From: Deuterostichococcus epilithicus
Lineage: Eukaryota; Chlorophyta; Trebouxiophyceae; Prasiolales; Stichococcaceae
Reading direction: 5' to 3'
Assembly (NCBI GenBank): GCA_033439295.1
Contig: JAVTLE010000014.1
Span: forward strand, 248,001 to 312,000
Length of the DNA stretch: 64,000 nt
A program made the position numbers and the translations under genes. The notes under the pieces are model-generated. The model saw nothing but the letters and a program-made list of their open reading frames with translations, ran no database searches and had not been told where the DNA came from. This document shows, piece by piece, positions 5,101 to 52,800 of the stretch. Numbering within the stretch: position 1 is the first letter of the stretch; every line of letters begins with the position of its first letter.

Positions 5101-8100
5101 GCATGCTCATGCGCCAGTCGCTCGTTCAGCTCGCTCGCCTTCGCCCAGTGCCCCTCCATCGCCGCCTTGAGGCCCTGCGGCAGCATACCAAGGTGTTGGG
5201 GTTCCAACGCTGAACCCCAAGGCTCAGAGTTGGCGACTGTACAGCCCCTCCAGGTCAGCTCGGAAGTGGCTGCGGACGGTGTCCGGACAGGGCGGGCCTC
5301 GCACATGTAGCCCTGAGATCGGTGCAGGGCTTCTTGGACACGCTGCAGAGCGGAGGTGCTGCAGGGCAGCTGATTGCAGGCACATGGTCGACGGTTCGCT
5401 CGTGGCTCGAACGTCTGACGGCAGGAGCAGCGCCCGGCGCCAGCACCTGTGCGATGCGCATGCCGAGGCGGGGCACCGGCACCGAGGCACACAGGACAGC
5501 GGTTATTGAACCAGGGTGGAATGAATGTAGGGCCAAGGTTCAGGTTTTGGCGCGCACCACAAGGCGTGGCGTGAGCTCTGCCGCCCGCTGCCCAGCCCAC
5601 TCCTTCCACGTTGCCTGCGCGCCCGACTTGAGCATGGCCCACAGGCTGCCGCAATGCGCTTTGACGTTCTGCACCAGCACAGGCGGCAGCGGCAGTCAGT
5701 GGCAGGGCGAGGTCCACCTGGCCAGGGTCCTAAGCTAGGACCTGCCTGCGTGGCAGTCCTTGCACGTCTTCCCTGATGTCTTGCCAGCTTGCAAGAGAGG
5801 CGGCGCCGATCAGTTGCAGCAGATGTGAAACGCAGGTGGGAAGGGCGTAAGGTGCAACCGCCCTGCTGGCATGCACTTGGACGTGCGGCAAGCAGGCCGG
5901 CACGATTCAATGCCTCGCAGCTGCCGTGAACTGCTGGTGAAGTCGGCAAAGGAGACCACAGTGCAGGAATGCAGCGTGGCCAAGATCCCCCAAAAGGCTG
6001 GAAACCCCCAAGAGACGGCCAGCAGTTGCAGCGCTCGCCTCCAGGTCGGCGGCTGCCGCGGCCGACACCGCGTCCGGAGCAGCGGCAGCGGCTGCCGAAG
6101 GCTGAAGGCGGAGGACGGCAGCCTTCAGGGGATGCAGGGCAGCCCACAGCTGGGCGGGGCCGCCCTCCGTCGCCTGCGCAGGGCAGTCTCAGGCTGGTGC
6201 CAGGGCAGCCGGGCGAAGGGGGAGCATGTTTCGGATCGTTGGTGCAAGCGGCTTGCTGGCAACTGACGGAGTACGGGCACGCTGACAGGTACGGGCAAAT
6301 TCGCATGTGCCAGTGCCGAATCGCGCGCGGAAGCCTGTGACCATGCATGATGCAGGTGCGAGCAGCAAAAAACACAACAGAAGATGCATCGCACCGTCAG
6401 CTCGTGGCTGAAGGCGTCAGGATACACCACCAGCAGGCGGCCGAACAGCGCCGGCTCCGCCCGGAGCGCCTCCGCAAGCTGCAGGCAGAATCAGCGAATC
6501 CAGGACAGAATATAGAGCCCTGAGGGTCTGCTTGATCTGGTGCACGCGCTGCTGGGCATGCCTGCTCACACCCAGAGTCAGAAGGGACGGTTCCGACCCT
6601 CTGAAGCACGAAGGCCGCAGTAGATCACAGTGCACCAGCCTCAGCATGGCATCGCTCACAGCTGCGGCAGCACCATGGGCAAGGCCGCGGCATGCCTGCA
6701 ATCCACACACGGGTGCTGGCGGCGCAGCCGGCTGGGCAGCACCCCCCGCGACATAGCTGCTCCTCAAGTGTGGCTTTAGGGTTTGATGGCTGCCCCACAG
6801 TGACGGTCCGCATTGCAGCGACGGGAGGGAAACCCTCGAGAGCCGGACCTGCAGGTCGCGCACAAGCGCCGGCGGCGCGGCCAGCGCGGCGGCGTCCTTG
6901 GCAGCGAGCGACTCGCGCAGGCGGGCGGCCACACCCTCCAGGATCCCCCGGCTCTCCTCCGCGTGCGCAATGTCCACCTCCCGCGCCTTTTGCTGCAGGG
7001 CCTCCTGTGCGGGGCAGGGGCAGCGATGACGCGTGAAGGGGTCCTCGCAATGTTAGGAAAGATCAGAACATGGAATCGTGGTTGTGCAGCAGACTCAGCG
7101 ATAGTGTGAGTCGAGGCGTGACAAGCAGCAAGAGCTGTCAGGCTGTCAGCCGCTGCAGCGGGCCGAGCGGAAAGGCCGACGAAGGAGTGGTCGAAGAGGG
7201 TGTTCGGGGCTGCCATCCAGGCCTGCACTGCTTGGGGCCTTTCCTTTTCGACAAGCTTTTTGACATTCAAGGGAACGCAGGCGCACCTGCAGGTTGGCGG
7301 GCGGCGGGTCGATGCCAAGGTTGCCGCCCAGCGACGGCCGCGGCACCCGCATGTGCTCGTGCAGCTGGATGTCGACCTTGGCGCAAATTTCCTGCAGATG
7401 GGAGATCAAGGTCCTCAAACTTGTCCTACCACCATCGTGAAAGCAGTGACGGGAGTTCGTCAAGCAGTCGACTTTATCGAAGTTGGCTGGACGGCTTACA
7501 CCTCTCCCTGAAATCGACTGCTGTCTGCATCCAACACCGGTGGCGCCTGTCCCGAATCGGTGCTGGACATCAGCGTCGCACGAAGAACAAAGTCGCACCG
7601 CAAGGGCCAGCGGCCGCGTCAGGGCGGCGCCGCTGCCGACGGCGCTCGGACGTGGCGCCAGGCCGCGTCGCAGCACGNNGCNCGGCGTCGCCGGCGGCCG
7701 GTTGCGGGCGCTGCGCGGTGTGGGCGCGCACTGCGGCGCCTGCTTCAGCGGCGTACGTGCCAGCCGGCTGCCGCCTGCGAGCAGATGATCACAGGAGCCT
7801 CTGGGACATCCGGGAGTGTCGATTGCAGTCGCCAACCCCAGATCCATTGATGCATGCAGCACTGGCTGTCCCTGGGACAGAAACCGCTGCGCGTGTGTCC
7901 ATCATCAAAAGCACTTGCCCTCAGGCTTCTGACAGTGCATCTGATGAAGCTGCGTGCGGTCATGCTGGATTGCAAGCCAAAGTAAAGCAGGCCTGAATGT
8001 AAACCCTAAAGCAAGGCGCACCGGCACCGGGCAGCTCGTTGGTGTTGGTGGTGTCAGCCAGCGGCAGGAAGGGGTCCAGTCGGGCGCCGCCCCCCGGGCT

Positions 8101-14802: not shown

Positions 14803-17800
14803 ATGAGCGCTGACGCCGCGCTGGCCGTGGACGCGCTGACGACCGGGCCGACAGGTAAGGGCCGCGTCACCACATCCCCTCCTTCCTGCAGGCCTCGTGC
14901 TTCCCAACTTCCTGCTTGCAGGGTTGGCCCGTCCGCTGCTGCTGCCGGTCTGGAGCTCAAATTGCGAACTGCATCGTCCTCGGCAGACTGCCTACAGTTT
15001 ACAGGCCGGCAATTTTGCCTGCGTCCCTCTTGACCCACGGTCTCCTTGGTTGCAGAGCCGACACCGCCACAGCCGTTGCCTGAGCCGGAGCCCGTGGAAG
15101 AGACCGCGGAGCAGCCGACGCCGACACCGGGCAAGCGGGAACGCAAGTCGGGGCACAAGGAAGCGCCCAAGAAGATCTACTTCTGCGCCAAGCCCCTATG
15201 CCAGCACAGCTTCGAGGGCAGCATTGGGCGGCGCCCCTGCTACGTGCAGAATGGCTCCTTCTCCAAGGGTGCACACAAACGCTCCTGCGGCGGCGGCTAC
15301 CGCTGGCTCGAGGTGTGTGCAGCTGCTGGGCATGAAGGCGGACGTCGCAATGGCGCGGAACGTTGCAGCGCACTCTGTTTGCGGAACATGTTTGGAGAAC
15401 CCAGCATGTCGCTGATGTACCACAACACACTGACGAATCCAAGGAGTCGCTCAAATCGTTGTCAATCAAAAATGAAACTTCTTCCTGCAGCTTCGGGATG
15501 TGGAGCTGGAACCGCACGTGCAGCTGGAGCAGAGCGGCCAGCAGTTCTTCCTGAACATCTCGGGGCCGCACAACCTGGAGCCGCGGCAGGGGCGTGCTGG
15601 GCACTCCCCCCACATGGTGCGCAGCACCACCCCAGAGCCTTGCTTTGTGTTTGTGCCAGCTGTGCTGTGACGCCAGGTCAGGAGGCAGGGCGGGTCACGG
15701 CCACGGTGGGTGTGCTGCGCCCGGTCACCCTCAATGGATTGTTCTGTGGTGCTCCTGCCTGTCACAGAATCACGCTGCATGCAAGTCAGCAGCCAGACGC
15801 TGTCGGCACACGATGCACGCTGCATTGGGGTGTCAGGGACAAGTCGAAGGAATGTTGCAAGCCGTGGCGCACAGCAAACCTGGGCAGTCTGCCCTTCAGA
15901 CTTGGTTCTTGGACGGCGGCGCCTGGCGGCGCGCTGTCTGTTGCCCTTGCGTAACAGTCGGCCCGTGTCCTTGACAGTTGGCACTTGGCAAGCTGCAGCG
16001 CGGTGAGGCGGTCGTCGTGGCCCCCCACCCCGACAATGAGCCTGGCAATGTGGTCATCACCGCCGACGACGCCCAGGCTGCCTACGACGGCACTTCAGAG
16101 GCCGCCCTGGCCCAGGCAAGATCACGATTCAGGGTTGCCTTGTTCAGAGACACGTGGAGAACACCCACGCCTCTTAGTCTCGCTCTGGCTTTGGTATCCT
16201 GATGCGCCAGCAGGCGTGGGGGCCCTGTCGCATTTGGCTGCGGCCGCCGCCTCACCGGTGAATCGCACTGCTCGTCTCGACGCCGCCGGCAGGGCGATAC
16301 ACTTGCTCCTGCGCAGGGCCACCCTGAATGTAAACTAATAAAATGAATTTTTATTTTTGTACATGCTGGTCGGCCTCGATGCGCCCTTGCCTCAACCCCG
16401 CCTGTCTGAAAGAGCCGCCCCTCCCGCCGGCCACACCGTCAGCCTCTGCCTCGCAAACGGCACCCCCCAGACCGCCGAGCGCGAGCGGCGGCGCATGCGC
16501 TGCACCATCAACACACTGCAGCTCCGACTCGGCAACCTGTTTCTACGGTGTTGATCGTGACATTTGCGCACCCTCTCAGGCGGCGCTGACGGCGGGGCAG
16601 CACCACCAGGCGTCGCAGGTCCCCGCGGGGCCGCCGGCGGACGTGCAGGCGGCCATGGCCGGCGTCTCATCCGACATCCAGGCTGTGGTGCGTAAAACAC
16701 ACTTGTAAGAGTCATTGGACGTTTGATGAATTTATTGTAAGTCTGTAATTCTAGAGGCATTCTGTGCGTCTGGTATCTCCAGATCAGAAGGGTCGACTGC
16801 CCTCTTGAGGACAGTAACTCCATTCGCTGCTGAGGTTGTTTGGGTGCTAGGGTGTTCCAGGATCATCAGGGAACCTTCCAGCACGCTGGCAGTGCTCCCT
16901 GCCTGCACCCGCAGTGCTCCCTGCCTGCACCCCGTCGCCACATCTGCGCAGCACCGAAGGGTTGCACACTGGCGCGGACTCGCACCGCCGCCGCTGCCTG
17001 TGCAGGTGCCAGGCAGAAGGTGGCAGAACGTTGCAGAAGGTGGTGGAGCTGCACTCTTGAAGCCCTGAATGGTGAAATGCAATTAAAGCTCCTTCTCGCT
17101 GCGTCCTTGCCGCCGTTTCACAGGTGTGCCAGCAGTGGCGGGGTCGTGCTGGAGCCGCAGCAACTGCAGTCGGAGGTTCCACCTCGTAAGCTCCGATGTG
17201 ATATTCCGGTCGAATTCAAGTGGCACATCGCCGCAGGTGGGCTGGCCAGGTGGCGCAAGATGGCGGAACTGCAGAAACCGCGCTCCTTCAGTGCGCTTCT
17301 TTCAGGTTCAGATTTTTCGATCAGGGCTTTTGCAACGCTTTTCTTGCGACGCTTCTCTGCCGTCGCCGCAGGTGGGCCAGCTGTGGCGGGAGGTGGCAGA
17401 GCTGCAGAAGCTGCAGGCGGAACTGAACCACCGGACCAGCGCCGCGGAGCAGGCGGCACAGCTGCTGGTGGGCGCCGCGCAGCGCGAGCGCGCGGCATCG
17501 GCCGCCGCTGCTGCAGAGGTGTGTTCCTCCACCTCTGACAAATAAAATCAGTTCGAAACAATGCCAAGGTGGTGGGCGCCTCGCAGCGCGAGCGCGCAGC
17601 ATCGGCCGCCGCTGCCGCAGAGGTGTTCTTCCGCCTTTGTCAAACGGGATCACTTCGAAGCGATGCGCATGCGGCAGCTGGTGGTGGGTGCTGCGCAGTG
17701 CGGCCGCTTCGCACCTGCCGCTGCCGCAGCAGGGGTGGTGTCCTTTGTCAACATGAAGGTCATCCTGAAGGCCCATGCCATCTTGATGTGGAAGCACTGC

Positions 17801-34156: not shown

Positions 34157-37100
34157 ATGAGGATCAACATCACGTTGGACATTGAGCCAGCTGAGATACC
34201 ACTCGCAAACGAGGTTATCGCGACGCTCAGGTGCACGATCTCAACGCTACCGCAGCGCGTTTTTGCATCAGCACTCTTCGTTTGATAGGTTTGCACTCGT
34301 CACAACAAACGCTCTGCAAGAATCACATGTATCAATCAAACGCCGCGGAGGCCAATCATGTCGTTAGTGGTCGGAGACTGCACCGGAGGATAGCACAATC
34401 AGCTATTGCATGTCGCGCTGGCAGAGGCTATCAGACTTGATAAATGAAACCTTGCACGGCGGCTATCGCTCAAACAGTGAGCGCATGGCATCATCCGTCT
34501 GCAGGTCCTGCCATGGCAATACATTGTGCCCTGGTGCAGCATGCTCAGCATGCCCAGCCTCGAGTTTGCCACATCCAGTTTCAGCCCTCTGAATCATCCA
34601 CCCCCAAACCCTTCTCGCCTCGCTAACCGCAGGTCGCTGACTGCCAACGTCAGCATCAACCAGAAGGGCGGCGCCTCTAGCAGCCCGGCGGCGGAGAAGC
34701 CGCAGCAGCCGCAACAGCCGCAGCCGCCGCAGCGCCAGCCGTCTGCCTCCAGCCAGCCGCCGGTCGCGGCGCAGCCGTCGGTGTCAGTGCCACTCCCGCA
34801 GCCGCAGCCGGCGCCGGTGCCGCAGCCTCAGCAGCAGGCCCCGACGCCGACGCACGCAGCCGTCCCGCCGCAACAGCCACCGCAGCCGAACGGCAGGGCC
34901 AGCACTGTGGACGCCAGCCAGGCGGCATTTGCCAGCCTCGTACGGCGTCTCGGCGATGAGGGCGCAGACGCAGAGGTGCGCTGACAATTTCTAGTGAAAG
35001 AGGTGCAGGGTCTCGGCAAAGCGCGCAGGCGGGGCAGGCATGGCACAAGCTCATAAGTCGTTGCACGATCACAATCTGTCCAGACGCAGACAGTGTGGCA
35101 GCCAAGGGCTGGAGGGCGCATCCTGGCTGGCCTCGGGACCCCGCCGCCGCGCCTTGCAAGCCGTGTCCCGCCTGGAGAGCTGTGCCTTGACGATGGCAGC
35201 GTCCCCTGCCGCTGGGTACCGAGCGGAGGTCAGCCAGCCGCAGGCGTCTGCGTCAAATGCGCCTACAGCAGCTTCCCGGACAGCTTGCATGTCCACGGGC
35301 GGCGCCTGAAGCCAGCAAAGTACGACACCTGGAGCAGGGTATCATGGCGGGGAGGTCAGCCGGCTGCCACCGACGCCGCCCTTCCCGGCTTCCTGGGTAG
35401 CTCTGAATGCCCGCATTCTGCGCACGAAGCCAGAGGTTCTGCTGGCCGACGCAGGGCATCATGGCAGAGGTCAGTCGGCTGCTGGCGTCCGGCGGCGACG
35501 CCGCGTTCCCCAACTTCCAGGAGGCCTTCATGGGCGGCGTCTTCAACCAGGCCAACAGGGACAACCGCGTCTCGGTGGTGGGTCGTTGAGTCCAGAGGCT
35601 GTGCGATGGTCAACGTCCATGCCCAACTGCCAACCGCGCCGTTCCCAGTTTGGAATTCAGGTGGAAAAGACGCTTTGGCTGGTTCTGGCAGCAAAAGCCC
35701 CAAGTCTGCCCGCCAGGCATGTGCCGGCAGCCAGGGTGGCGACATGACGACAACGAGCCCCAGTTGCAGGGCGGCTGTTGTCCATCCACCGATGGTCACT
35801 GCTGCAGCAGCCACCGCTCGGGGTATAGTGCACGGAGCGGCGGGCCTGCTGCTGCAGTCGGAGTCGGAGTTGCAGGAGAGTGGCATGCCCTCCGTCGCAC
35901 AGGCACGATGTGTGGCACCATCGTGGAGCGATGCGACTGAGCCTCGGGTCCGCTGGCTTGCAGGTTCCCTTTGTGGAGGCGATTAGCGGCCTGCGGGACC
36001 CGTGGAAGAACAAGACGCGCGATAAGGTCATCCCCAATGTGCGTCCCTCATCTACGCTGTGGTCCCTTCCGGATGCCCAGCCCAGCGGGCGCATGCTGCA
36101 TCGGTGACACAGCCGCGGTCAGCCTGCAACAGCTGTGTGGGTCGGCAGCACGACTCAGTGCTGGCAGCCTGATGGGATGATGCGCTCCTGTGCCCACCCC
36201 GTGGCAGAGCGCATTCGCTCGGCGTGCAAAGGCTGCGAACACGCCACTAGGATGCCTGGAACAGCGCAACAACTGGTCGGGCGGCACAAGGAGGCGGACA
36301 GGAAGATCCCTCTGACGCACAGGTTCTGAAGCACCTCACCGTCAAGCGGCCGATGGAGTGCGACCGGATGGACTTCTTCCCACAGGTCCGCTCGTCTGCC
36401 AGGCCCCGCTGAAGCTGTCCCGGGTGTGCAGCCGGTCCCCTCCCTGTGTGCAATCAGGGCGTGCAGCCCGGATGTGCACCCTCTGCAGCTGCGTTGGGTT
36501 GTGTTCCGTGTCAGCTGTGTGAGGAGCACACCATGTCCCTGCATGCCATGGACGGCGCGCTCGTCATCTGGCACGTCTACATCCGCTCTGCGCCTGCCCC
36601 CTGCACAGGCGGAGGCGTTCGCGGCGCTGGTCAACAGCGGGCTGATCGGCATCGAGGGCGCGGTCAAGACCATCGTGGCGCTGCTGAAGAAGCCGGACAA
36701 CCGCAGCGCCGCCGTCACCATGATGGGCAAGACCGCTGAGTTGTGCGTCGACCAGGCGCGCCGAATCTATTCTTTTTTCTCATATATGAAAGGCAGCATG
36801 AGCATAGTTGCCAGCGGAAGCTCCTGCAGGCCCCTGTCGCGATGCGGAGGTGGCCGCAGCGCCGCGGGCATCATGATGGGCGGGATCGCTGAGCTGGGCG
36901 TCATGCAGGAGCAGGGTTGGCAGCAGCAGTAGGAGCACTGCTGTCAGGCATCACCCCCTTGCTGCAGCACTCCTGCTCTCCTGCACGACTCGTCATCTCG
37001 GACACGACCACGGCGCTGTGGTCTCTGTGGTGGGCAGGGCTACCGAGCTGTGCGTGGAGCAGGTGTGGGGGTTGACCGGCACCTGCTCAGCAGGTGTCAT

Positions 37101-40100
37101 GCGGGGCGCAAGAGCATGTCGTGGTGGGGCTGCTGCTGTTGCCGTAGACAGACCTTGCAACGGCCCGCAGCCTGCAGAGCAGAGCAGACTGCTGGATGTT
37201 ACTGGGATATGGCGGTATATGTTTGGGCATTGACGGGATGTGCCGGAATCGGCATGCTGGAGCAGTGGTAACACTGTGCCGAAACTGGCCTTGCCTGTTT
37301 CACCACATTTGCTGGACTCTTCGACTTGGCTCGATTAAAGGTGCTCACTTTCCATGCTGCAGCTCACGGAGTGCGACCCCGCCATGCTGGAGCAGCTGCG
37401 TACGACGCTGGGGCTGTGCGGCGAGCAGCTGTTCCAGTACGACCTGGACTACATCAATGACATCATGGGCTGGCCGCCCTCAGGCTACACAGCGCTCGCC
37501 GCGCCACAGGTGCCTTGTTGCCTGGTTTCTCAAAGCTGGAGGTCTCTCCCCACACGCCTCCCCCCGCCAAACCTTGAAACCTTATTAGGCATCGCATCAT
37601 GGACTGGCCGCCCGGCGGCCACCTCCTCCGCGCCGCAGTGACCCCGCCCGAACCTCGCTCACTCTCGAGGCAAGGGACTCTGCCCTGTCCCCGACCTGCA
37701 CTAGCTGCGTGATGGGCTGGCCGCTCAGCGGTTACACCGCGCTCATCACGCCGCAGACGCCCCCGTGCCCTGCCCACCAGCCCGTCTTCTCAAAACCCAA
37801 ATGCCATGCTGGCACATCTGCAGTGCGCAGGCGCCCACGTCTCGACCTGCTGGACGAACCGCCATGGGGGTGTTTTGATCCCGAAGGCAACCTCTTTGCA
37901 GATGTTGTGCAGGAGCTGCTCCTTGAATCACAGCGGCTGTGCTGCATGCGGTTGCTGTTTGCAAAGTGAGGAGCCACGGCGCACAAGCGGTTGCGGCTGC
38001 ATGCCAGTCGGCTGCACGATGTGCTTGCTTCGCCCCCGACGAAGGTTGCCGCCCCCCAACACCGCCTGCACGCCTGCGCGCAGGTGCTGCGGCGGCTGGC
38101 GGCCTGGGAGGGCCACGGCGACACCATCTTCGCGCTGGCGTATGACGCGAGCCGCCGGCGCCTCATCTCTGGCGCCAAGGACTCTCAGGTCTGCCCATCT
38201 AAGCCCTGAGTGGTGCCTTCCCTTCCACGGTCGTCCAGGGTGGAGCCAACGCTGCCTGAGCATGCGGCCAGGGCTGTGCCGTCGCGCTCGTGCGAGCTTG
38301 CAGTCTTACAGCAGGCTGCCGTGGTGTCCGGTGCTCCCCAGCAGGCTGCAGGGCTCAGGCATCGTGGCAGCCGCCCGTGCCGCCTCGGTGAAATCTGCAG
38401 TCCTGGTTGCTGGGCAGGCCCTGCGTAGCGAGCGCTGTGGCGGTGCCCAGCAGCTGCCGTGGGAAGCTTTTCACGAACCCTGTGTGTGTTTGCCATCGCC
38501 GAATGGCGTGTTCAAACATGAGGGCCCCGCCCCTCCAGGTGCTGATGTGGGACGAGGCGGGCCAGCGGGTGGGCTCCCCCATCACGCTGACCGGCTGCTT
38601 CATCTGCGCCATGGACCTGCAGCCGCGCGCCGACCTGCTGCTCGTCGGCGGGGCGCCCCCGGGGCACATATGAGTGCCCCCTTTCCGCCGCATTGGTGGT
38701 GCCAGCTGCTGCCACTTCAAGGAGCAGGCAGCGCCATGGACCTGCAGTTGCGCGCAAGAGAAACCCAAAACCCTAAAAGTTGCTGCTCATCGGCGGTCTG
38801 CCTTCGACAGCCTTCAAACTTCATCTTACAATTGCTGGAGGGTCTGACACATCTTCGCCTTGGACAACAAAGTGGCAGCGCTGTGCAGCTCTCGAGAATA
38901 GCGTAATTCTTGCCAGCTGTGCCGTTCGTCTTGCTCCACAGCTGTGCCGCCCTTGGTTCCGGCGCACTTGTCGGCAAATCACCAGTTGAGTTCATATGCA
39001 GCTGACGCCTGCATCCCGCACCCCAGCACAGCACGGCCTGGTGGCCGCGGATCAGCGCACCCACGAGCAGCGGCTCTCGCGCGCCGACCCCCGCCACGTC
39101 AGCTCCCGGCACGCAGATGTGCCTCCTGCGGGTTCCCATGACAAACACGCCCGTTCAAGCACAGGCGTGCCGCGGGGCAAGAGCGCCACGAGCGCCTCGT
39201 GCGTGGCTGCGTACCGGCTGAGCGGCGATGGCGCTGCGCCGGCGGGCATGCTGGTGCCGCCGCGCAACCGGCTCAAGGTGCTGTCGGTCGTGCGCGCGCT
39301 GCCCGACGCCAACGGCTTCATCACTGGTGGGTTGGCCCGCCTCTAGCCCTGAGGCTGCCCTAGCGGAATTGGTTGAGGTGACGTTTGCACAGCTCGGCGC
39401 GGCCGCCAGAAGGTGGGTTCGTGTGCGCTGCGCGATGCGGCCTCTGAGAAGCGCTTTCGTTTGCGCGGCTCGGTGTGGCCTTCGAAAGGTGCTGTGGAGA
39501 CACGCCTGTCGTTGTGTGCCCCGCAGACACGGGTGGCTTTGCTGGCTGCTGTGCAATAAAGCCTCTGAGGGAAGGTGCTACTGGCAAGTTTGAGGAATGT
39601 CGTCCGGTGCGAACAAAGCGATTTGATGCTGTCGTTTGCACTGGATGACATGCCAGAACTTCGCCCATAGCACCTTTCCCCAGAGGCTCTATCGAAGCGA
39701 TTCGGTTTGTATGTCCGGCTTGACAACCAAACGCGTCTGCCGTTTGCTGATCTGCATGAGCGCTGCCCTGCCACTGCTCTGCAGGCGAGACAATGCAGAA
39801 GAACGCAGCGGGCGTGGAAGAGAACGTGGTGCGATTCTACAGCACATCGAGCGGTGCCAGCTTCGACAGCCTGCAGCCAACTTCTGCCTTCCGGGTGAGG
39901 CGCCGACGAGAAACCAACGCTTTATCTCCTGTATCAGGCTGGCAGCCGAACTGTTCTCAGAACCGTCCAATTGCGGTCGTCCGCACTGTATGACTGAGGA
40001 AGCTCAAGCAGGACGTGCGGTGTTCGATACTGCAGGGCTTGAACATTTGCACTTTGGTGCTGCCAGTCGCCGGAAGCAGCAGGTAGAGCGACGACTCCAT

Positions 40101-41945
40101 GTCTGCCGCAGGGGCACACCGACATGGTCACGGCGGCGGTGCCGTTCCCAGGACAGCCACCCCTGTTCGTTTCCGGCTCAAAGGACGGCCAGGTAACGCT
40201 CAGCAGCCTCAAGCGCAGCTGCCTTGCATTCCTCCCGTGCCTGTCGGATGCCGTGCCTGTCGGATGCCGTGCCTGTCAGATGTCATGCCTGCCAGGTGTC
40301 CGACAGGCGGCATTGGCCTCGTGAGCGGCGGCGCCCCAGCTCGCGAGGGTGGCTGCTTGTGCAGCACCTCGCAGCTGCATGCTTGTGGCGTGAAACCGCA
40401 GACCCTGGGAACGGACGGGACGCGCGCACGGGCAGCCAGCACTTCTCGTCCAGGCGTCCCCCGCACAACACCCGCCCGCAGGCACTGCATCATGCTGCGC
40501 CAGTACTGCGCCATGCTGTATAAAGCTTGCTGACCCCCCGCTGCCGCCGCAGGTGCTGCTGTGGGACCACCGGACGGCAGTGTCAGGCGCCGCGGGCCGC
40601 TTCAATGTGCCGGCGTCGGCGGGCGGCCCCAACATGGTGACCTGCCTGGACGCCGCTGGCCACATGCTGCTGTGCGGCGGCACCAACAAGCACGTCACGC
40701 AGTGGGACCTCAGGTGTGTGTTGTGCCTCCCCCGTCCACCGCCCTTACCCAGCAGAGCCTGGCCAGGATCCATGTCCCAGCCTTGCCAGGGTCCATGCCG
40801 GGCTGTGCGGCGGCACCGACGGGCACATCGCGCAGTCGGACCTCGGGTTCGTCCGCTCTCATACCCGAAGGCTCTGATTGTGAGCTCAGCCTGACCAACC
40901 GCATGCTGCTGCTGTACGGCGCAAAGAATCACGCAGCGCAGTGGGACTGATAGGGCAGAAGACGCTGCACCTGTCGACGCTTCTCCGCCACACATGCTTG
41001 CCGGCTCCGCTTTCTTCTCCACAAGCGTCTGTCTCCCACCTTGCAGGTCGCTGCAGCAGGGCTCCGCCACAGAGTCGGTGCGCGCGCTGTGCGTCGACGA
41101 CTACACGGTGCTCAAGCTGGTCATTGGCGCTTGTACATGGTTATTAATTCTGACAGCACTCACCTTGCCTCCCCCGCAGGTCGCTGCAGCAGGGCGGCGC
41201 GACAGAGTCGGTGCGCGCGCTGTGCGTCGACGACTACACGGTGCTCAAGCTGGCCATCGGCGCGACGCCGTCGCAGGTCGCCATCACCACGTTCGACGGG
41301 CTGTACCTTGCCGACTTCAGCGTCGAGGGCCAGCAGCCGGGTGCGCAAAGCCCTAATATTACCGACCAGAATTGTTTCTCAGCTGTGCCTCTCGAACCTT
41401 CGAGGGAGGTTGCCCTAGAGGATAATGTAACTCACATGCGGCACGGGCATCTTCGAGCTGTCACCGGGAACCCATGCATGGTTTGTATCAGGGTTTTGCA
41501 GCTGCCGCCCTCCGGACAGTCACGGGGATGCGCGACCACACGCCCCCCGATGGGCCGTCACGGGGCAGCAGCAGCACCAGGACGCTGGCGCACCTGCAGA
41601 CGTTTTCGCGGGATGCGCTGTCGCCGTCACAGCCGTGGTGCAGTGTCCAAGCGTGCACCCGACACCCTCCGTGCCTCACGGGCCGCAGGCATGGAGAAGA
41701 TGGGCATCTCACGAGATGCGCTGTTGCCAGTCCACAGTCGCGGTTCAGACTTCCAGACTTCGAGCTGCACCCGACACCCCCGTGCCGCACGGACCGCAGG
41801 CATGGAGAAGATGGGCATGGAGAAGGCGCCGGACGGCAAAGTGCGGCACTACCACGACGTCAAGTGGGCGGCGGACCGCGGCACGCTGTTCGCCGGCGGC
41901 ATCAGCCGCCGCGTCGACACCTTCCAGCTCGGGCCCGCCGCCTAG
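34157..41945 (+). CDS. WD40-repeat protein with helical N-terminal half
   Basis: Exact, phase-checked exons: 34157-34230 (ATG), 34633-34975, 35455-35574, 35964-36038, 36323-36385, 36609-36755, 37363-37509, 38084-38188, 38539 to about 38640, about 39170-39326, 39785-39894, 40112-40192, 40553-40713, 41180-41340, 41800-41945. The join between the 38539 and 39170 exons is unresolved. The N-terminus is MRINITLDIEPAEIPLANEV. A Pro/Gln-rich linker follows, then about 150 residues of helices (VPFVEAISGLRDPWKNKTRD; GAVKTIVALLKKPDNRSAAV) that look ARM- or MIF4G-like by pattern only. From about residue 250 come WD40-type blades: EGHGDTIFALAYD, then LISGAKDSQVLMWDEAGQ; LFVSGSKDGQVLLWDHR; LLCGGTNKHVTQWDLR. 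The intron after 36755 begins GC rather than GT in this model. A scaffold role is inferred; no named family is recognised. Confidence 0.75.
35335..35400. repeat. decayed copy of exon 35455-35574
   Basis: Reads GTATCATGGCGGGGAGGTCA then GCCGGCTGCCACCGACGCCG, paralleling GGCATCATGGCAGAGGTCAG and TCGGCTGCTGGCGTCCGGCG at the start of the exon 100 bp downstream. It carries several indels and no longer encodes a continuous exon. Confidence 0.65.
36860..37070. repeat. two intronic copies of the end of exon 36609-36755
   Basis: Copies at 36867-36920 (ATGATGGGCGGGATCGCTGA, then GCTGGGCGTCATGCAGG) and 37020-37067 (GTGGTGGGCAGGGCTACCGA, then GCTGTGCGTGGAGCAGGTGT) match the real exon end at 36718-36756 (ATGATGGGCAAGACCGCTGA, then GTTGTGCGTCGACCAGGCG). 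The second copy has a canonical GT donor at the position where the exon itself has GC. Confidence 0.75.
37510..37800. repeat. two intronic copies of the end of exon 37363-37509
   Basis: The block at 37709-37800 (GATGGGCTGGCCGCTCAGCG, then GTTACACCGCGCTCATCACG, followed by intron-like TTCTCAAAACC) matches 37467-37535 (CATGGGCTGGCCGCCCTCAG, then GCTACACAGCGCTCGCCGCG, TTTCTCAAAG). A shorter copy lies at 37595-37640. The duplicated unit spans the exon end and the start of the intron. Confidence 0.75.
38715..38815. repeat. decayed copy of part of exon starting 38539
   Basis: GCGCCATGGACCTGCAGTTG, then CGCGC and later TTGCTGCTCATCGGCGG, parallels GCGCCATGGACCTGCAGCCG, CGCGC and CTGCTGCTCGTCGGCGG at 38606-38655. 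Confidence 0.65.
40237..40300. repeat. 16-bp minisatellite, four units
   Basis: Four consecutive 16-bp units of GTGCCTGTCGGATGCC. The first two are identical and the last two carry substitutions. They lie in an intron of the WD40 gene just after the exon ending 40192. Confidence 0.85.
40790..40955. repeat. two intronic copies of the end of exon 40553-40713
   Basis: 40800-40858 (GGGCTGTGCGGCGGCACCGA, then CGGGCACATCGCGCAGTCGG) and 40898-40955 (CGCATGCTGCTGCTGTACGG, then CGCAAAGAATCACGCAGCGC) parallel the exon end at 40662-40715 (ATGCTGCTGTGCGGCGGCAC, CAACAAGCACGTCACGCAGT). Confidence 0.7.
41047..41132. repeat. near-identical upstream copy of exon 41180-41340
   Basis: About 86 bp starting GTCGCTGCAGCAGGGCTCCG, preceded by its own TTGCAG acceptor, repeats 41180-41265 with only a handful of differences and keeps the reading frame. 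The copy then diverges and lacks the second half of the exon. It is either a recent partial duplication or a cryptic alternative acceptor exon. Confidence 0.85.
41590..41706. repeat. tandem copy of the acceptor region of the last WD40-gene exon
   Basis: The 117-bp unit ending CCGCAGGCATGGAGAAGATG parallels the next unit (41707-41818), which contains the true acceptor of the exon at 41800. Both share GATGCGCTGT, GCACCCGACACCC and the CGGNCCGCAGGCATGGAGAA junction. Confidence 0.8.
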
Positions 41946-42676: not shown

Positions 42677-45600
42677 CTACTGCTGGGCGCACTGCACGCG
42701 GCCTGGCCCGGGGCCATCTTCGTCGTCTGACTCGTCGTAGGCTGATGTGTGGTGCCGCCTCTGGAACTCACGCCTGCACACGCCCCGATGGTATTAAATT
42801 GAAATGTACAGAGTTTGATGGAGTTCAGCCTGTTGAAAGGCGCTCCAAGCATCCACACATCCCAGACAGCCAGCCAAGGTGCTTAGACTTCTCAGATGAA
42901 GTGCGGTGTGGATGTTGCCCCAAGTGATCCGCGGAGTGGCACAGGGGGGGACCGCGGCAGCTGCAGCTGCGGCGAGGTCCAGCGCCTTGGGCAATCGAGC
43001 CGAGTTTGCGGAGCATCCAGGCAACAGCCTGCGGGCGCACCGCTGCTTGAGCTCCTGCTCGAAGTCGCTGACGGCGCGCATGAAGCACTCCTCTGCCTCG
43101 TCCACCTGCATCGCGGCGCCGTTCTCCGAGGGCCCCTTGGGCAGTATCTGTGGCAGTGGAAGTACGGGAGTCAGGGAGAAGTCGCCACTCAGCGTGGGAC
43201 TCGAACACAGATGGAGGGTTGCCAGCGACTCTGGCTCCATGGGCGCACTTCCCCGGCAGCGAACGTCACCGTGGCGCTCCCACTCAAAGTGATGACGATG
43301 CACACTGCAGCAGCTGGAGGGCAGGACGCGAGGGGACACGAGGAAATGCGAAGGTGAAGACTCACCTGCGTGAGCGCCTGCACTTGCTCCGGCTGCAGGC
43401 TGTCGGGGAACTTGACGTCGAACTGGATGTACAGGTTGCCCTTCTCGTAGGGGGCGCCCTCAATGGGCATCCCTTCCCCATCCAGCACCTTCCAGCTGTC
43501 TGGCTTAATGACCTCGCCCGGCTGCGTCGACACCTGTAGGCGGCAGGGGCCGGCAGTCCATGGTAAGTCACAGGCACAGGCACAGGCACAGGCACAAGCA
43601 CAGGCACAGGCACAGGCACATACACAGGAGGCACAACGCTTTCGAGACACAGTGCGTGCTGTCACATGTTGACGTTGCCTCAGTGCAGACGGCGGAGTAA
43701 GGTAGAGGTGGGACCATTGTCAGGAGACGGCAGGACAGGCAAAGAGACCCCGCTTGATCCATGCCACAGTGAGCCCAGCACAACATCAGGAAGGTGCGCT
43801 CTGTGGCTTTGCGCAGTCATTGCAGCTGTAGTGGTGCGACAGGCAGCCATGCCGCCGAGGCGCTGCCTCAGAAGCTGTGGACACCCGATCAGGCAACACA
43901 CACTCAGGCAACATCCCTGGCGCAGCCTTCCTGGAGGCACTTCCTGACGAGTCTGCAGTAAACGATTCGAGGACATGGGGCAGCTTGAGGGGCAAATCAT
44001 GTCGCACCTGCAGCACGCGGCCATCGAGGTGGCGCACATGGAAGTTGAGCCCGGTGAGTGCCTCCGACAGGCTGATCGACTTCGACAGGATGAGGTCGCT
44101 GGGCGCCTGCGGCGGCAGGATGGCAGCATCAGTCAATGTGTGCCCGACCTTACCGGCCGACACCAACTGATGCGCCGCAGGCAGGCTCCCGACCACTGGC
44201 CCCTCTCAGCTTGTGTGGGCGTGTGCTGCCGCGGTTTGTTAAGTGGCCTGCCCGACTGGAGCCATCCCAACTGTGGTCGCTCTCTGCTGGGTGCAGGCGG
44301 CACAAGGCAGCCACGAGGGAGATCCACGACAAGGAGGCGTCTCCGCATTCGAGTTGGCTCCGTGTCTTGTGCCTGCCCTCGCTGCCTTGTGCGGCTTGCA
44401 GCATCCTGCCAGGCCAGCACCTGCCGGCGTGTGTCTGTGGCAGACTCTGGCCCTTTTGACCCGGAAGTTCAGCCGTTGTGCAGCATCTGACCCGCCTGCT
44501 TGACCCGCCTTTCCCCAGCCCAGACACCGCCATGTTCACGCCCTGGCTGATTTGTGCCCGCATCAAGGCAGCAAACCCACCTGAACCTGGTCAGCGCACC
44601 GAAGATGCGGCGCTTTTCCTGCTCAAGGCCAAGCACACAACGAAGACGGGCAGATATGTCGAGAAACCGGGTGTTGTGTTCTATGAAGACGCGCACCTGG
44701 TTGATGCGCTTGAAGAAGCGGTGCTCCTTCTGCTCCAGGACGAAGACCACGTCTCCAGGCTGCACTGTAGGGTCGCTGCATCCCGCCTCCCCCCGCAGCA
44801 CGATTTTTGCACCGTGCTTCTGCCCCTGCAATTGCGAGGGACAACGGCGCCTGAGGTGGTCCGCAACCTCTTGTGTGACTCCCAGGGCACAGCAAACATT
44901 GGTAGCCGCGCGGCCGCAGCAGCTGCAGCGGCTGCAGGCTCGTTGAGTCTGCGCCCGAGCGCACGCGCGGAGCGGCGCTCCCAAAAAGCGTGTCGTCACC
45001 CCCTGAGCTGCCAATGCCCGCCGCCGGTCGCATCACAGGCCCACATGGAAACAAGAACCTGAAAGCAGTGCACATTAAGACCGTGTGCACATCGAACACC
45101 TTCTCCTCCGGCAGGCTCTTGCCTTGCTACCCTCACTTGCAAACCAAGTGGAAAGAGGAGGGAGGAGACATCAAGGTGAAGCGCATCCCACCTTGGCGAT
45201 GTGCACATCGAACACCTTCTTCTCTGGGAGCAGGCCCTTGCCGGCGCAGGCGCCGCACTTGTCGCTGGCGGGCACGCTGTAGCCGGTCTGTTGGCAGGCG
45301 CTGCAGGGCTGCTGGATCTGCTGCATCATGCCCGGGCCGAGCGCCCGCAGCGAGACCTGCGACACACGTATGTGCGGCCCAGCTCCTTGGCTCAATCTTC
45401 ATCACCCTTGCATCAGGTGCCGGCCCTGGGGGTCCGGTGACCCACTTCCAGGTAAGGGTGTGCCAGACACATTGATAGGGAAGCACCAGGGGAGCAGCAG
45501 CAGGAGCAAGAAAACAGGAAAAAACGAGACGGTGTGTCACATCAGGGTGCACTGCCCATGGACCCGAAGAATGCGCTATCGGCTTGACTGCAAGAAGAGG

Positions 45601-49898: not shown

Positions 49899-52800
49899 AG
49901 CGGCGGCACAAAGGGTGGCGGCTGCAGCGGCGCCGACGGCGGCTGGTGCCACAGATTTGCGGCCGTCACCGGCACGCCACCAAAGCCAAAGCCGCCAAAG
50001 CCAAAGCCGCTGCCGCCAAAGGCATTGGGCAGGCCCTGCGCATGCGGTGGGGGCACGCCAGGTGCCGTGGTGGGGGCAAAGCCACCAAAGCCACTGGGGC
50101 CACCCGGCGGCGGTGCGAGCATGCCACTGCCGGAGCGGCTGCCGCCGCCGCCCGCTGGCGGCAGGCCTGAGGCGTCCAGGGAGAGGTCCGCCGGCAGCGC
50201 GGGGATGCCATTGGCCAACACGCCGCTCGAGAGCGTGCTGTCGAGCGCGAGCGCCGAGCGCGGCCGCGCGATGGGCGCCGCGCCGGCCGCCGCAGGAACC
50301 ACAGGGTCCAGCACCGCTGGGGCGCCGGCCTCGGGCCGCTGCGGCGGCCCTGACAGGACGAGGTCCGCAAGCGCGCTGCCGACGGCGGAGGCATCGTGTG
50401 CCGGCGCGGCGGCGCCCCTGCTAAGCGGCGGCGGCTGGAACGGCTGCGTCGCCAACGCGTCCGCAGGGTGNTGCGGCGGCACCGCCTGCTGTGGCGCCTG
50501 CTGGGGCAAGGGCGCAGCCAGCTGCGGCACGGCCGCAGGCGGCAGCGAGGCGGCGGCCGGAGCGCCTGGCGATGCGGTTCCGGGAGGCGACGCCGAAGGG
50601 CCCGCCTGCGGAGAAGCACCCTCTGCTGCTGCAGCAGCCTTGTCTGCATCCGCCTTCGCGGTTGGCAACGGCAGCGTGCGCCCTGGCGGCTTGTTGCCGC
50701 CACGGTTGCGCTTGCGGCCCGGGCCATCCTTGGGTGACGCGCCCTTGGGCGGCTGCTGCTGCTGCGGCGGCGGCCTGTGCGAGTGCATTGACAAGTCAGT
50801 ACAGCAAGGCTGTACGCTTTTTATCACCTCAGTGGCTGCCCGCAAACACACGGCACAGGTGTCTTGTGCCCGCAATGCTGCAACAGAATTCCAGCGGAAA
50901 ACCCCTTGCTTTCTGCACAGTCTCCTCTAGGATGTGATGAGCCCACACCTGTCTGCACCAGTGGGAGCGGGCGCGATGTCGCGGGGAGCTGCACGCTCGC
51001 CTCGGGCGCGGCCACGGCCGCCACGGCCGCGACTGCCCGCGGCCGAGGTGTCCGCAGCGGCCGCCGGCTCATCAAAGGCGTCAGGGACCTTGTGCAGCTG
51101 CGGGCCGGGCGCGGCGTCGCCCTGGCGGCTCGCGCTGTCCGCACGCTTGCCGAGTGCTGTGGTCCCGCCGCCCGCGGCGGCTGTCGACCCTGGCGCCGCA
51201 GGTGGCAGCGCGTCAGGGGCCGGCGCAGTGCCCGCTTCCGGCGCCTGTGCCGCCTGCTGCTGCGCCAGCGGCGGCGGAGCATCCCGCATCAGCGTCAGCG
51301 GCTTGGCCCAGGCGTTGACGATGGGCGGCGGCGACGGCGTGTGCATCAAGGCTGGCGGCGCTGGGTCTGCAGAAGCCGCGGCGCTGAGCAGCGGCGTGGT
51401 CTCGGCCTCGGNNNNCGGNNGNGGNGNCGCCGCAGCCCTGGCGGCCTCGGCGGTGGCCGCCTCAGTGGCAGCTTCCCGGGCAGCCTCCTCCACGGCGGCG
51501 TTTGCCTCGGCCTCCGCCACTGCGCGGGCCTCCGCAGCCGCCGCTACCTCGGCCGCCTCCTTGTCGGCCGCGGCCTTGGCCTCGGCCTCGCGGGCAGCGA
51601 TGCGCGCGTTGATCTCTTCCAGCTTGGCCTGGTGAGCAGCTCAAAGCACGTCAGCAGGGCGCCTAGCATGACGTCCGACAGCTTGAAGCAGCTGCGCATG
51701 ATGTTGAGCTGCTAAACCGGATACTCGTGGCAGCTCGATGAAGCTATGCAACTCAGGCGCCTTCTCAAGGCCAGCTCGCCGGCCTTGCTGATGGCTTGAG
51801 ACAAGCCATCAGCCTACGCGGCCGTGCTGGCATGAGCATCATGAACAAACCAGCTGCGGCGGCGGTCCAGACAACAACTGTCGAGACCCTGAACCCTGAA
51901 CCCCACCTGTGCAGCAGCCTTCCGGCGCTCCTCCGCCTCTGCTTCGGCACGCAGCGCATCGGCGCGTGCCTGTGGCAGGCTGCGGTTCTTGCCCTGATAC
52001 GACAAATCCTCAGGATTGAGCATAGAAACGGAGTGAAGCGACAAGCATGCTGAAGCCGGCCACAGCAGAGGGCGTCAGATCATCCGGGCAGCACGGGTGC
52101 CGCCCAGGGTGGCAGGCGCAGCGCAGCACAATCACATAGCAGCAATGCGAGCAGCAACTCGACTGTGCGCATGTATCTCTCACAGTTTTGGATGTGACGC
52201 ATGTTCTGCAGCTGTGAAACGCTGCGGCCAGATAGTGCATTAAGCACGTTGGCTGCGCCATCTGCCTGCGCAGTGGTGGCCCTGTAACACAACCATCAGG
52301 CACGGCCAAGCACTGGCGCTGATTATGGGGCGGCACCTCTGCCTGTTCGATGCGGCGCGCTTCCTCTGCGCGGGCGGTGGCAATTGCTGCAGCTTCCTCC
52401 GCCTCTCGTGCCTCAATGGCAGCAGCCGCGGCGAGCGCCGCCTCAGCTGCTTTGGCCCGCTTCCTCTGCGTTGCATTAGAAGCGGTGACTCAGTTAAGCA
52501 CTGTCGGTTGACAGGAACCCCTAGCGAGCCTGCACCGCCTCTTGTGACGACTGGATCTGTTAGCGTCGCTCAAATCCGTGTTCCACTTCAAAGCACGCTG
52601 CCAATCTGCCTCGAATGCCGCCTGCACCTCTCTCAAGGCAGGAACAAAACGGGGGCCGGGTTGCCAGGCCACAGCCATCCGGCCACAGCCACGAAGCAGA
52701 GCCTCACCTCCTCTTTCTCGGCCGCAATACGATCCAGCTCCGCCATGAAGGCGGCGCTGTCGTCCATAGGCTCCTCCTGTGGCGGCGGCGGCTGCNGCTG

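Follow-up and report, generated by a model that had tools for sequence, protein, structure and literature searches.

Degenerate copies of exon edges lie in the adjoining introns of a WD40 gene and of other genes of the green alga Deuterostichococcus epilithicus

The window analysed here, a stretch of 64,000 nucleotides, corresponds to C12:248001-312000 of the D. epilithicus genome, which comprises 46.8 Mb in 21 contigs (labelled C1-C21). It harbours a WD40 gene of 15 exons, for which a model was built by hand (Table 1). The spliced frame of this model encodes 668 amino acids, has no internal stop and ends with a stop codon, and a WD40 domain was found in the gene product (Pfam, 4.3e-15). The model, made from sequence alone, requires GC donors at exons 6 and 9 (36755-36760 and 38647-38652, respectively); by eye, one intronic copy of each of these edges (see below) shows GT there. 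The gene region was single-copy in the genome at E 1e-5, bar three short low-complexity matches of exon 2. Intron 10 carries a 137-base hairpin (39556-39692; inverted repeat 73%, RNA fold -84 kcal/mol), which had no second genomic copy at E 1e-5 and is possibly a lone foldback element. A search of the window with Rfam gave zero matches at gathering scores. The window also contains 20 N bases, some of them clustered (7678-7682, 51412-51427 and others), which are perhaps masked or ambiguous positions of the assembly.

Table 1. Features of the window (scores are alignment scores against the exon edge; in brackets, the highest score of the shuffled null)
Feature	Position	Strand	Remarks
WD40 gene, 15 exons	34157..41945	+	hand model
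WD40 gene, exons 1-5	34157-34230, 34633-34975, 35455-35577, 35964-36038, 36323-36385	+	hand model
WD40 gene, exons 6-10	36609-36755, 37363-37509, 38084-38188, 38539-38647, 39165-39326	+	hand model
WD40 gene, exons 11-15	39785-39894, 40112-40192, 40553-40713, 41180-41340, 41800-41945	+	hand model
Copy of exon 3 start (35450-35550), intron 2, farther from exon	35210..35315	+	score 52 (41)
Copy of exon 3 start (35451-35521), intron 2	35334..35396	+	score 48 (41)
Copy of exon 6 end (36701-36759), intron 6	36854..36912	+	score 70 (35); blastn 84% over 49 bp
Second copy of exon 6 end (36694-36756), intron 6	36999..37063	+	score 51 (35)
Copy of exon 7 end (37461-37509), intron 7	37595..37638	+	score 41 (37)
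Second copy of exon 7 end (37440-37514), intron 7	37692..37761	+	score 57 (37)
Copy of exon 9 end (38606-38651), intron 9	38731..38796	+	gapped score 54.6 (33.6, 1000 shuffles)
Copy of exon 13 end (40663-40715), intron 13	40794..40848	+	score 67 (37)
Second copy of exon 13 end (40634-40708), intron 13	40877..40947	+	score 49 (37)
Copy of exon 14 start (41176-41263), intron 13	41043..41130	+	94% over 88 bp, E 5.7e-34
Spacer, 49 bp, between copy 41043-41130 and exon 14	41131..41179	+	resembles a working intron 3' end, by eye
Tandem repeat 41606-41707 / 41709-41818, period ~105	41606..41818	+	80%
Copy of exon 15 start in upstream unit of tandem repeat	41663..41707	+	score 75 (35)
Second cluster of exon-edge copies with tandem repeat	17121..17751	+	
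Copy of exon end 45200-45242 in adjoining intron, other gene	45084..45123	-	86%, 50 bits

Degenerate copies of adjoining exon edges had been noticed by eye in a first-pass annotation of this gene. Each of the seven places named there was aligned to the adjoining exon edge and compared with a null of 200 shuffles per edge, and copies were confirmed at all seven. Altogether, 11 exon-edge copies were identified in six of the 14 introns (2, 6, 7, 9, 13 and 14). Self-comparison revealed direct repeats at six of the seven places, and the seventh (35334/35451) was recovered at 37 bits in the local-repeat search. The copy at 35335-35400 was borne out, but the further copy in intron 2 (35210-35315) had been overlooked. 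A candidate third copy of the exon 6 end (37101-37199) scored 34, just under the null maximum of 35, and was left out of the count. The intron 9 copy is split by a telomere-like insert at 38768, and when long gaps were disallowed the remaining match (38731-38755) scored 42, equal to the null maximum of 200 shuffles. In the copy of the exon 14 start, ungapped similarity begins at the acceptor CAG, and a less strict alignment with gaps extends ~14 bp deeper into the intron; the source exon was the sole match when the genome was searched with this copy. The tandem repeat near the end of the gene lies in intron 14 and takes in 19 bp of exon 15. Introns 2, 6, 7 and 13 carry two to three copies each, at steps of ~105-155 bp. 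The copy nearer the exon scored higher in introns 6 and 13, whereas introns 2 and 7 had the better score in the farther copy; on another contig, the farthest of three copies in an array (C9:716548) was the closest match. Thus, there was no clear age order along the arrays. An assembly artefact is an unlikely source of the copies, since they diverge by 5-25% from the exon.

Exon-edge copying proved to be a property of several genes and not of the WD40 gene alone. We studied a non-random sample of 334 kb (0.7% of the genome), made up of the window, 100 kb each of C19 and C7, 50 kb of C9 and 10 kb each of C18 and C5. Exons in the sample were called by an ab initio gene finder, trained on the same sample, compared with the WD40 hand model only and prone to fuse neighbouring genes. 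For the 579 predicted introns, comparison of each exon edge with its own intron in sense orientation gave a Smith-Waterman score of at least 30 in 28 of 1158 cases. This score was reached in 1/1158 antisense comparisons, and in none of those with another intron of the same gene (0/974), with an intron of another gene (0/1140) or with shuffled sequence (0/1158). The claim that introns resemble their adjacent exons better than they resemble random exons was therefore upheld, and the presence of dead exon copies in adjoining introns, far above chance, extends to other genes.

Local repeats in the whole sample told the same orientation and scale: direct pairs cluster at 60-180 bp spacing and inverted pairs are nearly absent. 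At 60-300 bp spacing and at least 31 bits, 52 direct and 0 inverted pairs were detected in the 334 kb, a density of about one event per 6.4 kb; at 600-2000 bp spacing there were 15 direct pairs. Exact 10-mers shared by exon and intron at a lag of 100-140 bp numbered 192, as compared to 9 in one intron shuffle. They came from the window (100), C19 (47), C7 (18), C9 (26) and the two 10-kb stretches (0 and 1), and the lag peak was present separately in each of the four regions of at least 50 kb. Per million position pairs, exon-intron 10-mers amounted to 36-41 at lag 100-140 and ~3-5 past lag 160, and were also elevated (18-21) at lags 20-60. With the WD40 gene left out, the window still gave 20 matches, against 4 at lag 180-220. 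Exon-exon 10-mers were elevated at several lags, and intron-intron 10-mers weakly and at 120-140 alone. The events are clumped: 41 of the 66 bins of 5 kb had none and four bins had four or five (variance 1.6, mean 0.8). Event density per bin was unrelated to median intron length (rho -0.01) and weakly related to GC (rho 0.24, p 0.05).

Some individual loci deserve mention. A full tandem repeat, 17466/17570, lies in the second cluster of the window. A dense stretch on C19 (1041000-1052500, L013-L014) holds 12 local repeat pairs in 11 kb; by eye, one of its exons resembles histidinol dehydrogenase, and 106 bases of it (L013:9350-9455) have an 85% match on the minus strand at C21:89326-89432. At C19:1099165-1099329, the 3' flank carries, 115 bp off, a copy of the terminal part of a predicted last exon, stop codon included, so an intron is perhaps not required by the process. 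Perfect tandem repeats of 20 and 22 bases occur in the window (13483 and 16889), and short duplications of another size are therefore recent.

The local-repeat search, from which low-complexity pairs were filtered out, yielded 77 direct pairs (at least 28 bits, within 400 bp), of which 50 were exon-intron, 22 exon-exon by call, including copies miscalled as exons by the gene finder, and 5 mainly noncoding, two of the latter sitting in multi-copy loci. Tabulation was confined to 39 exon-intron pairs of at least 31 bits, up to 150 bp aligned and less than 400 bp apart, omitting exon-exon and noncoding-only pairs. In 21 of these the copy lies downstream of the exon and in 18 upstream. The distance from source to copy had a median of 132 bp (quartiles 114-154, for pairs under 400 bp only), well inside the 5 kb that delimits repair-mediated proximal duplication, and the gap from junction to copy had a median of 85 bp (n=39). 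By blastn ends, 37/39 pairs had an aligned stretch that stopped no earlier than 43 bp before the junction and no later than 12 bp past it, both exceptions belonging to one locus with a doubtful gene model. The copied exon span was 12-84 bp, from source exons of 87-213 bp (18 bp at one locus), and the full-exon copy that defines tandem whole-exon duplication was not seen. Past the aligned end, extension into the exon interior showed no overall excess (p 0.34; a score of 12 in 19% vs 4%). As judged by eye from the 39-pair table, distance was unrelated to exon length and the step showed no preference for multiples of three.

On the intron side of the junction the similarity fades quickly. The ungapped match was 0.46-0.49 at 2-6 bp past the junction (control 0.32-0.42) and had fallen to control level at 12-20 bp (donor 0.30 vs 0.29, acceptor 0.23 vs 0.24); at 20-30 bp it was 0.34 vs 0.27 for donors and 0.29 vs 0.25 for acceptors, and at 30-45 bp 0.26 vs 0.24 and 0.24 vs 0.25, respectively. 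Gapped extension beside the junction scored at least 8 in 34% of pairs as compared to 10% of controls (p 0.001), and the spacer resembled the stretch beyond the copy (score of at least 26) in 8/39 pairs against 2.6% of controls, although at seven of the eight loci the stretch used for comparison contains additional copies. In the young pair C9:714764/714865, likeness also covers ~24 bp of the intron end by eye. Short intron stretches were therefore copied in some cases, but a full intron half, diverged like the exon half, is absent in most pairs. Fast decay of introns is no general explanation, because wholly duplicated exon-intron blocks keep introns 67-88% alike (exons 69-100%). Among 64 comparisons of spacer strands with the surrounding 5 kb, the one strong match was itself an extra copy, and two introns searched across the 46.8 Mb genome had no outside relative. 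A shared element in the spacers was rejected, there being no family among these two introns and the 5-kb surroundings. A paralogue that might serve as an empty site was also sought with 9-kb queries against the genome, and none was near enough.

The copies are dead, free of coding constraint, because codon positions change about equally and most gaps break the frame: in the 39 pairs, differences at codon positions 1, 2 and 3 were 17.4, 13.9 and 16.8%, and 15 of the 19 gaps were frame-breaking. Changed codons were 190 nonsynonymous and 71 synonymous (50 pairs, including two long ones later excluded). The donor GT was retained in 5/21 donor-side copies and the acceptor AG in 10/18 acceptor-side copies. 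The first-pass annotation had taken the spread from near-identical to heavily decayed copies for a continuous process, which the divergences do not support. They averaged 15.2% with a best identity of 95% and were homogeneous (chi-square 43.2, 38 df, p 0.26), though detection, which cuts the low-identity end only, also narrows the spread. Steady birth with neutral decay, if pairs are assumed to be spread evenly over divergences up to 25%, expects about one-sixth of pairs above 96%, where 0/39 were seen (probability ~0.001). These figures point to a past burst, to selection acting against new copies or to copies that are diverged from birth, and a past burst seems to fit better than a continuous process. 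With decay over time, third positions should differ more, since the exon also changes silently; the third-position ratio was 1.08 (0.80-1.39, 39 pairs), which leans towards the same three readings, though codon bias could hold it down. Gene conversion that keeps old copies alike was rejected, mismatches being unclustered (mean z -0.07, n 26, one pair at p 0.02). Repeat-induced or CpG mutation was likewise rejected, as transitions were balanced for base composition and CpG sites differed in 16.6% vs 15.1%, in a test that still included two long pairs (one self-aligned), later excluded.

Telomere-like sequence was found at the boundaries of some copies (C9:716580-716677, 38768 and C19:1010704), and at the first of these telomere-like sites flank an extra copy on both sides. 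The telomere repeat of the present genome is CCCTAAA. Telomere-type 9-mers occurred at 23 sites in the 334 kb sample, and 19 permuted motifs at no more than 17. Five of the 23 sites, at four loci, fell in copy neighbourhoods, which make up 3.5% of noncoding sequence, as compared to 4/158 for the permuted motifs (22% vs 2.5%; Fisher p 0.002 by sites, 0.009 by loci); 18/23 sites had no detected copy. The 13-mer CCCTAAACCCTAA occurred 695 times genome-wide on both strands and its backward reading 0 times. Among the matches listed, many are telomere ends, and at least 13 on C1 and at least 12 on C3 are contig-internal; such interstitial motifs are dispersed along C1, C3 and other contigs.

Any mechanism faces four constraints, namely a single orientation, a step of 100-140 bp, sources that mostly end near the junction, and spacers mostly without relatives. 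We tentatively propose, with a probability of about 0.45, that the copies are short same-strand templated insertions from break or replication repair, filtered by splicing. During repair or replication in a gene, the growing strand would jump back ~100-140 bases on the same strand, copy 20-90 bases and be rejoined within the intron. Filler, including telomeric repeats, may sometimes be added at the insertion, and a longer copying run would give a full tandem duplication. A copy that brought in an entire second splice site would do harm and be lost, and most survivors would comprise exon with at most ~12 intron bases. Copies of intron sequence would also arise, but with selection on neither member of the pair they would become unrecognisable about twice as fast. 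The outcome would be longer introns holding dead exon edges. The copies, their direction, distance and adjoining position, their lack of coding constraint and their occurrence in several genes were observed; the strand jump, the repair setting and the selection filter are the parts of this scheme that we infer. Backward switching of the polymerase on the same strand meets orientation, step and spacer, and selection against complete splice sites can trim the source. Templated insertion is favoured by the 52 direct against 0 inverted pairs, the lag peak at 100-140, the junction limit in 37/39 pairs, the mostly unrelated spacers and the dead state of the copies. It is favoured also by the enrichment of telomere-type 9-mers at copies, which points to a break-repair setting, and by the precedents of vertebrate proximal duplications (PMC2671141) and of telomeric insertions (PMC7215372). 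The absence of inverted copies argues against templated insertion of the polymerase-theta type. Templated insertion has further evidence against it: the residual intron-side similarity (at 20-30 bp on the donor side, in gapped extension and in spacer scores), the 18/23 telomere-like sites without a copy, the small share of noncoding-only pairs (5/77) and, if copies decay with time, a third-position ratio that is not raised. The step of 100-140 bp also differs from the 1.2 kb average given for proximal duplications in the excerpted text of PMC2671141.

The first-pass annotation had read the copies as short tandem duplications spanning exon-intron junctions. If these were head-to-tail units of ~130 bp whose intron half has decayed beyond recognition, spacing of mostly ~100-150 bp in all classes and similar steps in arrays of two or three copies would be expected, as seen, and exon span plus spacer is slightly less variable than when shuffled (SD 25.2 vs 29.2, p 0.066). 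Full-length repeats are known here (41606/41709 and 17466/17570), and near-junction residual similarity (p 0.001), on the donor side at 20-30 bp too, agrees with this account. However, homology over the whole unit was present in a few pairs, such as 41606/41709, and absent from most, the intron halves being at control level at 12-20 bp. Moreover, the alignments of 41043/41176 (94%) and C7:1249129 (93%) end at the junction, and truly duplicated blocks keep their introns alike. Because clear homology in most pairs ends within ~12 bp of the junction and the ~85-bp spacers are mostly unrelated, most copies are not plain junction-spanning tandem duplications; the earlier reading holds for the few full repeats and the residual similarity. 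As a general account it fits junction-limited sources and relative-less spacers badly, and we consider it doubtful. Spacers that are mostly unrelated and unique, and telomere-like sequence at copy boundaries, would also follow from staggered double-strand breaks, in which overhangs of 20-90 bases are filled in to give two copies with 40-110 bases of filler between them; the part of PMC8355091 drawn on here describes 3' overhangs of 43-50 bases that yield small tandem duplications in cells. On the acceptor side, however, the dead copy would retain the 3' splice signals of the original, and new ones would have to come from the filler, and ~85 bp of filler seems long beside the 1-68 nt of primate proximal duplications excerpted from PMC2671141, so that staggered breaks are an unlikely source.

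An error-prone copying process linked to splice junctions or transcription, favouring a step of 100-140 bases and giving copies that are mutated from birth, would account for the uniform divergence of ~15%, the lack of a third-position excess, the best identity of 95% and the end of the copied stretch mostly within ~12 bases of the junction; we regard this, too, as improbable. Use of the copies as alternative or extra exons is suggested by the gene finder, which calls several of them exons (both members in 22/77 pairs), and by 41047-41133, by eye an in-frame exon of 87 bases if used. Against such use, codon positions change about equally, gaps break the frame, and GT and AG are kept in 5/21 and 10/18 copies, respectively, which makes a coding role very unlikely. 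Direct repeats around a spacer of similar size in many genes are what an introner-like mobile element, inserted with long target duplications, would leave. Neither of the two introns searched had relatives elsewhere in the 46.8 Mb genome, nor did the WD40 gene region apart from the low-complexity exon 2 matches, and such an element is very unlikely.

With templated insertion as the preferred reading, the earlier suggestion that the process makes introns grow or creates them holds for growth, as we infer from the extra sequence that introns became longer. Creation found no support: no new intron bounded by duplicated splice sites was seen, and all 39 copies lie at least 101 bp from the far noncoding end in the ab initio models. 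If the sample is typical, extrapolation gives several thousand events genome-wide. Many introns of this nuclear genome carry datable pieces of their own exons, which bears on intron growth and on the origin of intron sequence, and the step, the single orientation and the junction stop could expose a repair pathway that lengthens introns. In agreement with the first-pass annotation, no description of this in green algae was found in literature weighted towards open access, most subscription papers being outside its scope; the passages on introns, exons and repeats in the Coccomyxa genome paper make no mention of exon-edge copies.

Introner elements alter many introns across a genome, and many introns are altered here as well, but no shared element was found in the introns searched and no created intron was seen. 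Proximal repair-mediated duplications were found as insertions in transposons. In the excerpts of PMC2671141, vertebrate duplications of this kind lie on average 1.2 kb apart and reach 619 bp, with a median of 147. They have filler at their breakpoints, and they resemble the present copies in being short and local, with exons and splice sites copied and two duplicated exons unconstrained. The present copies differ from those excerpts in being 20-90 bp long, mostly 100-150 bp apart and in one orientation, and in bringing exon edges into adjoining introns, densely along genes. Tandem-duplication intron gain in the potato RdRp gene, as given in part of PMC4974935, similarly leaves a former exon inside an intron through boundary duplication, but here no new intron was seen, and most duplicates do not clearly extend more than ~12 bp into the intron side. 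The intronic matches of tandem exon duplication that Exonize reports (sections of PMC12343006) are likewise decayed exon copies within introns of their own gene; Exonize requires a set share of the exon to be covered, whereas here exon edges only are copied, at a preferred spacing and several per gene. In the horse, telomeric repeats inserted during break repair are accompanied by direct duplication or by random filler (PMC7215372); the present copies share direct duplication and, in a minority of events, telomere-like sequence, and would share random filler if they too arose at breaks. Local repair-mediated duplication is known, and the spacing of 100-140 bp together with the junction rule, undescribed in the literature found, is what the present genome would add to it.
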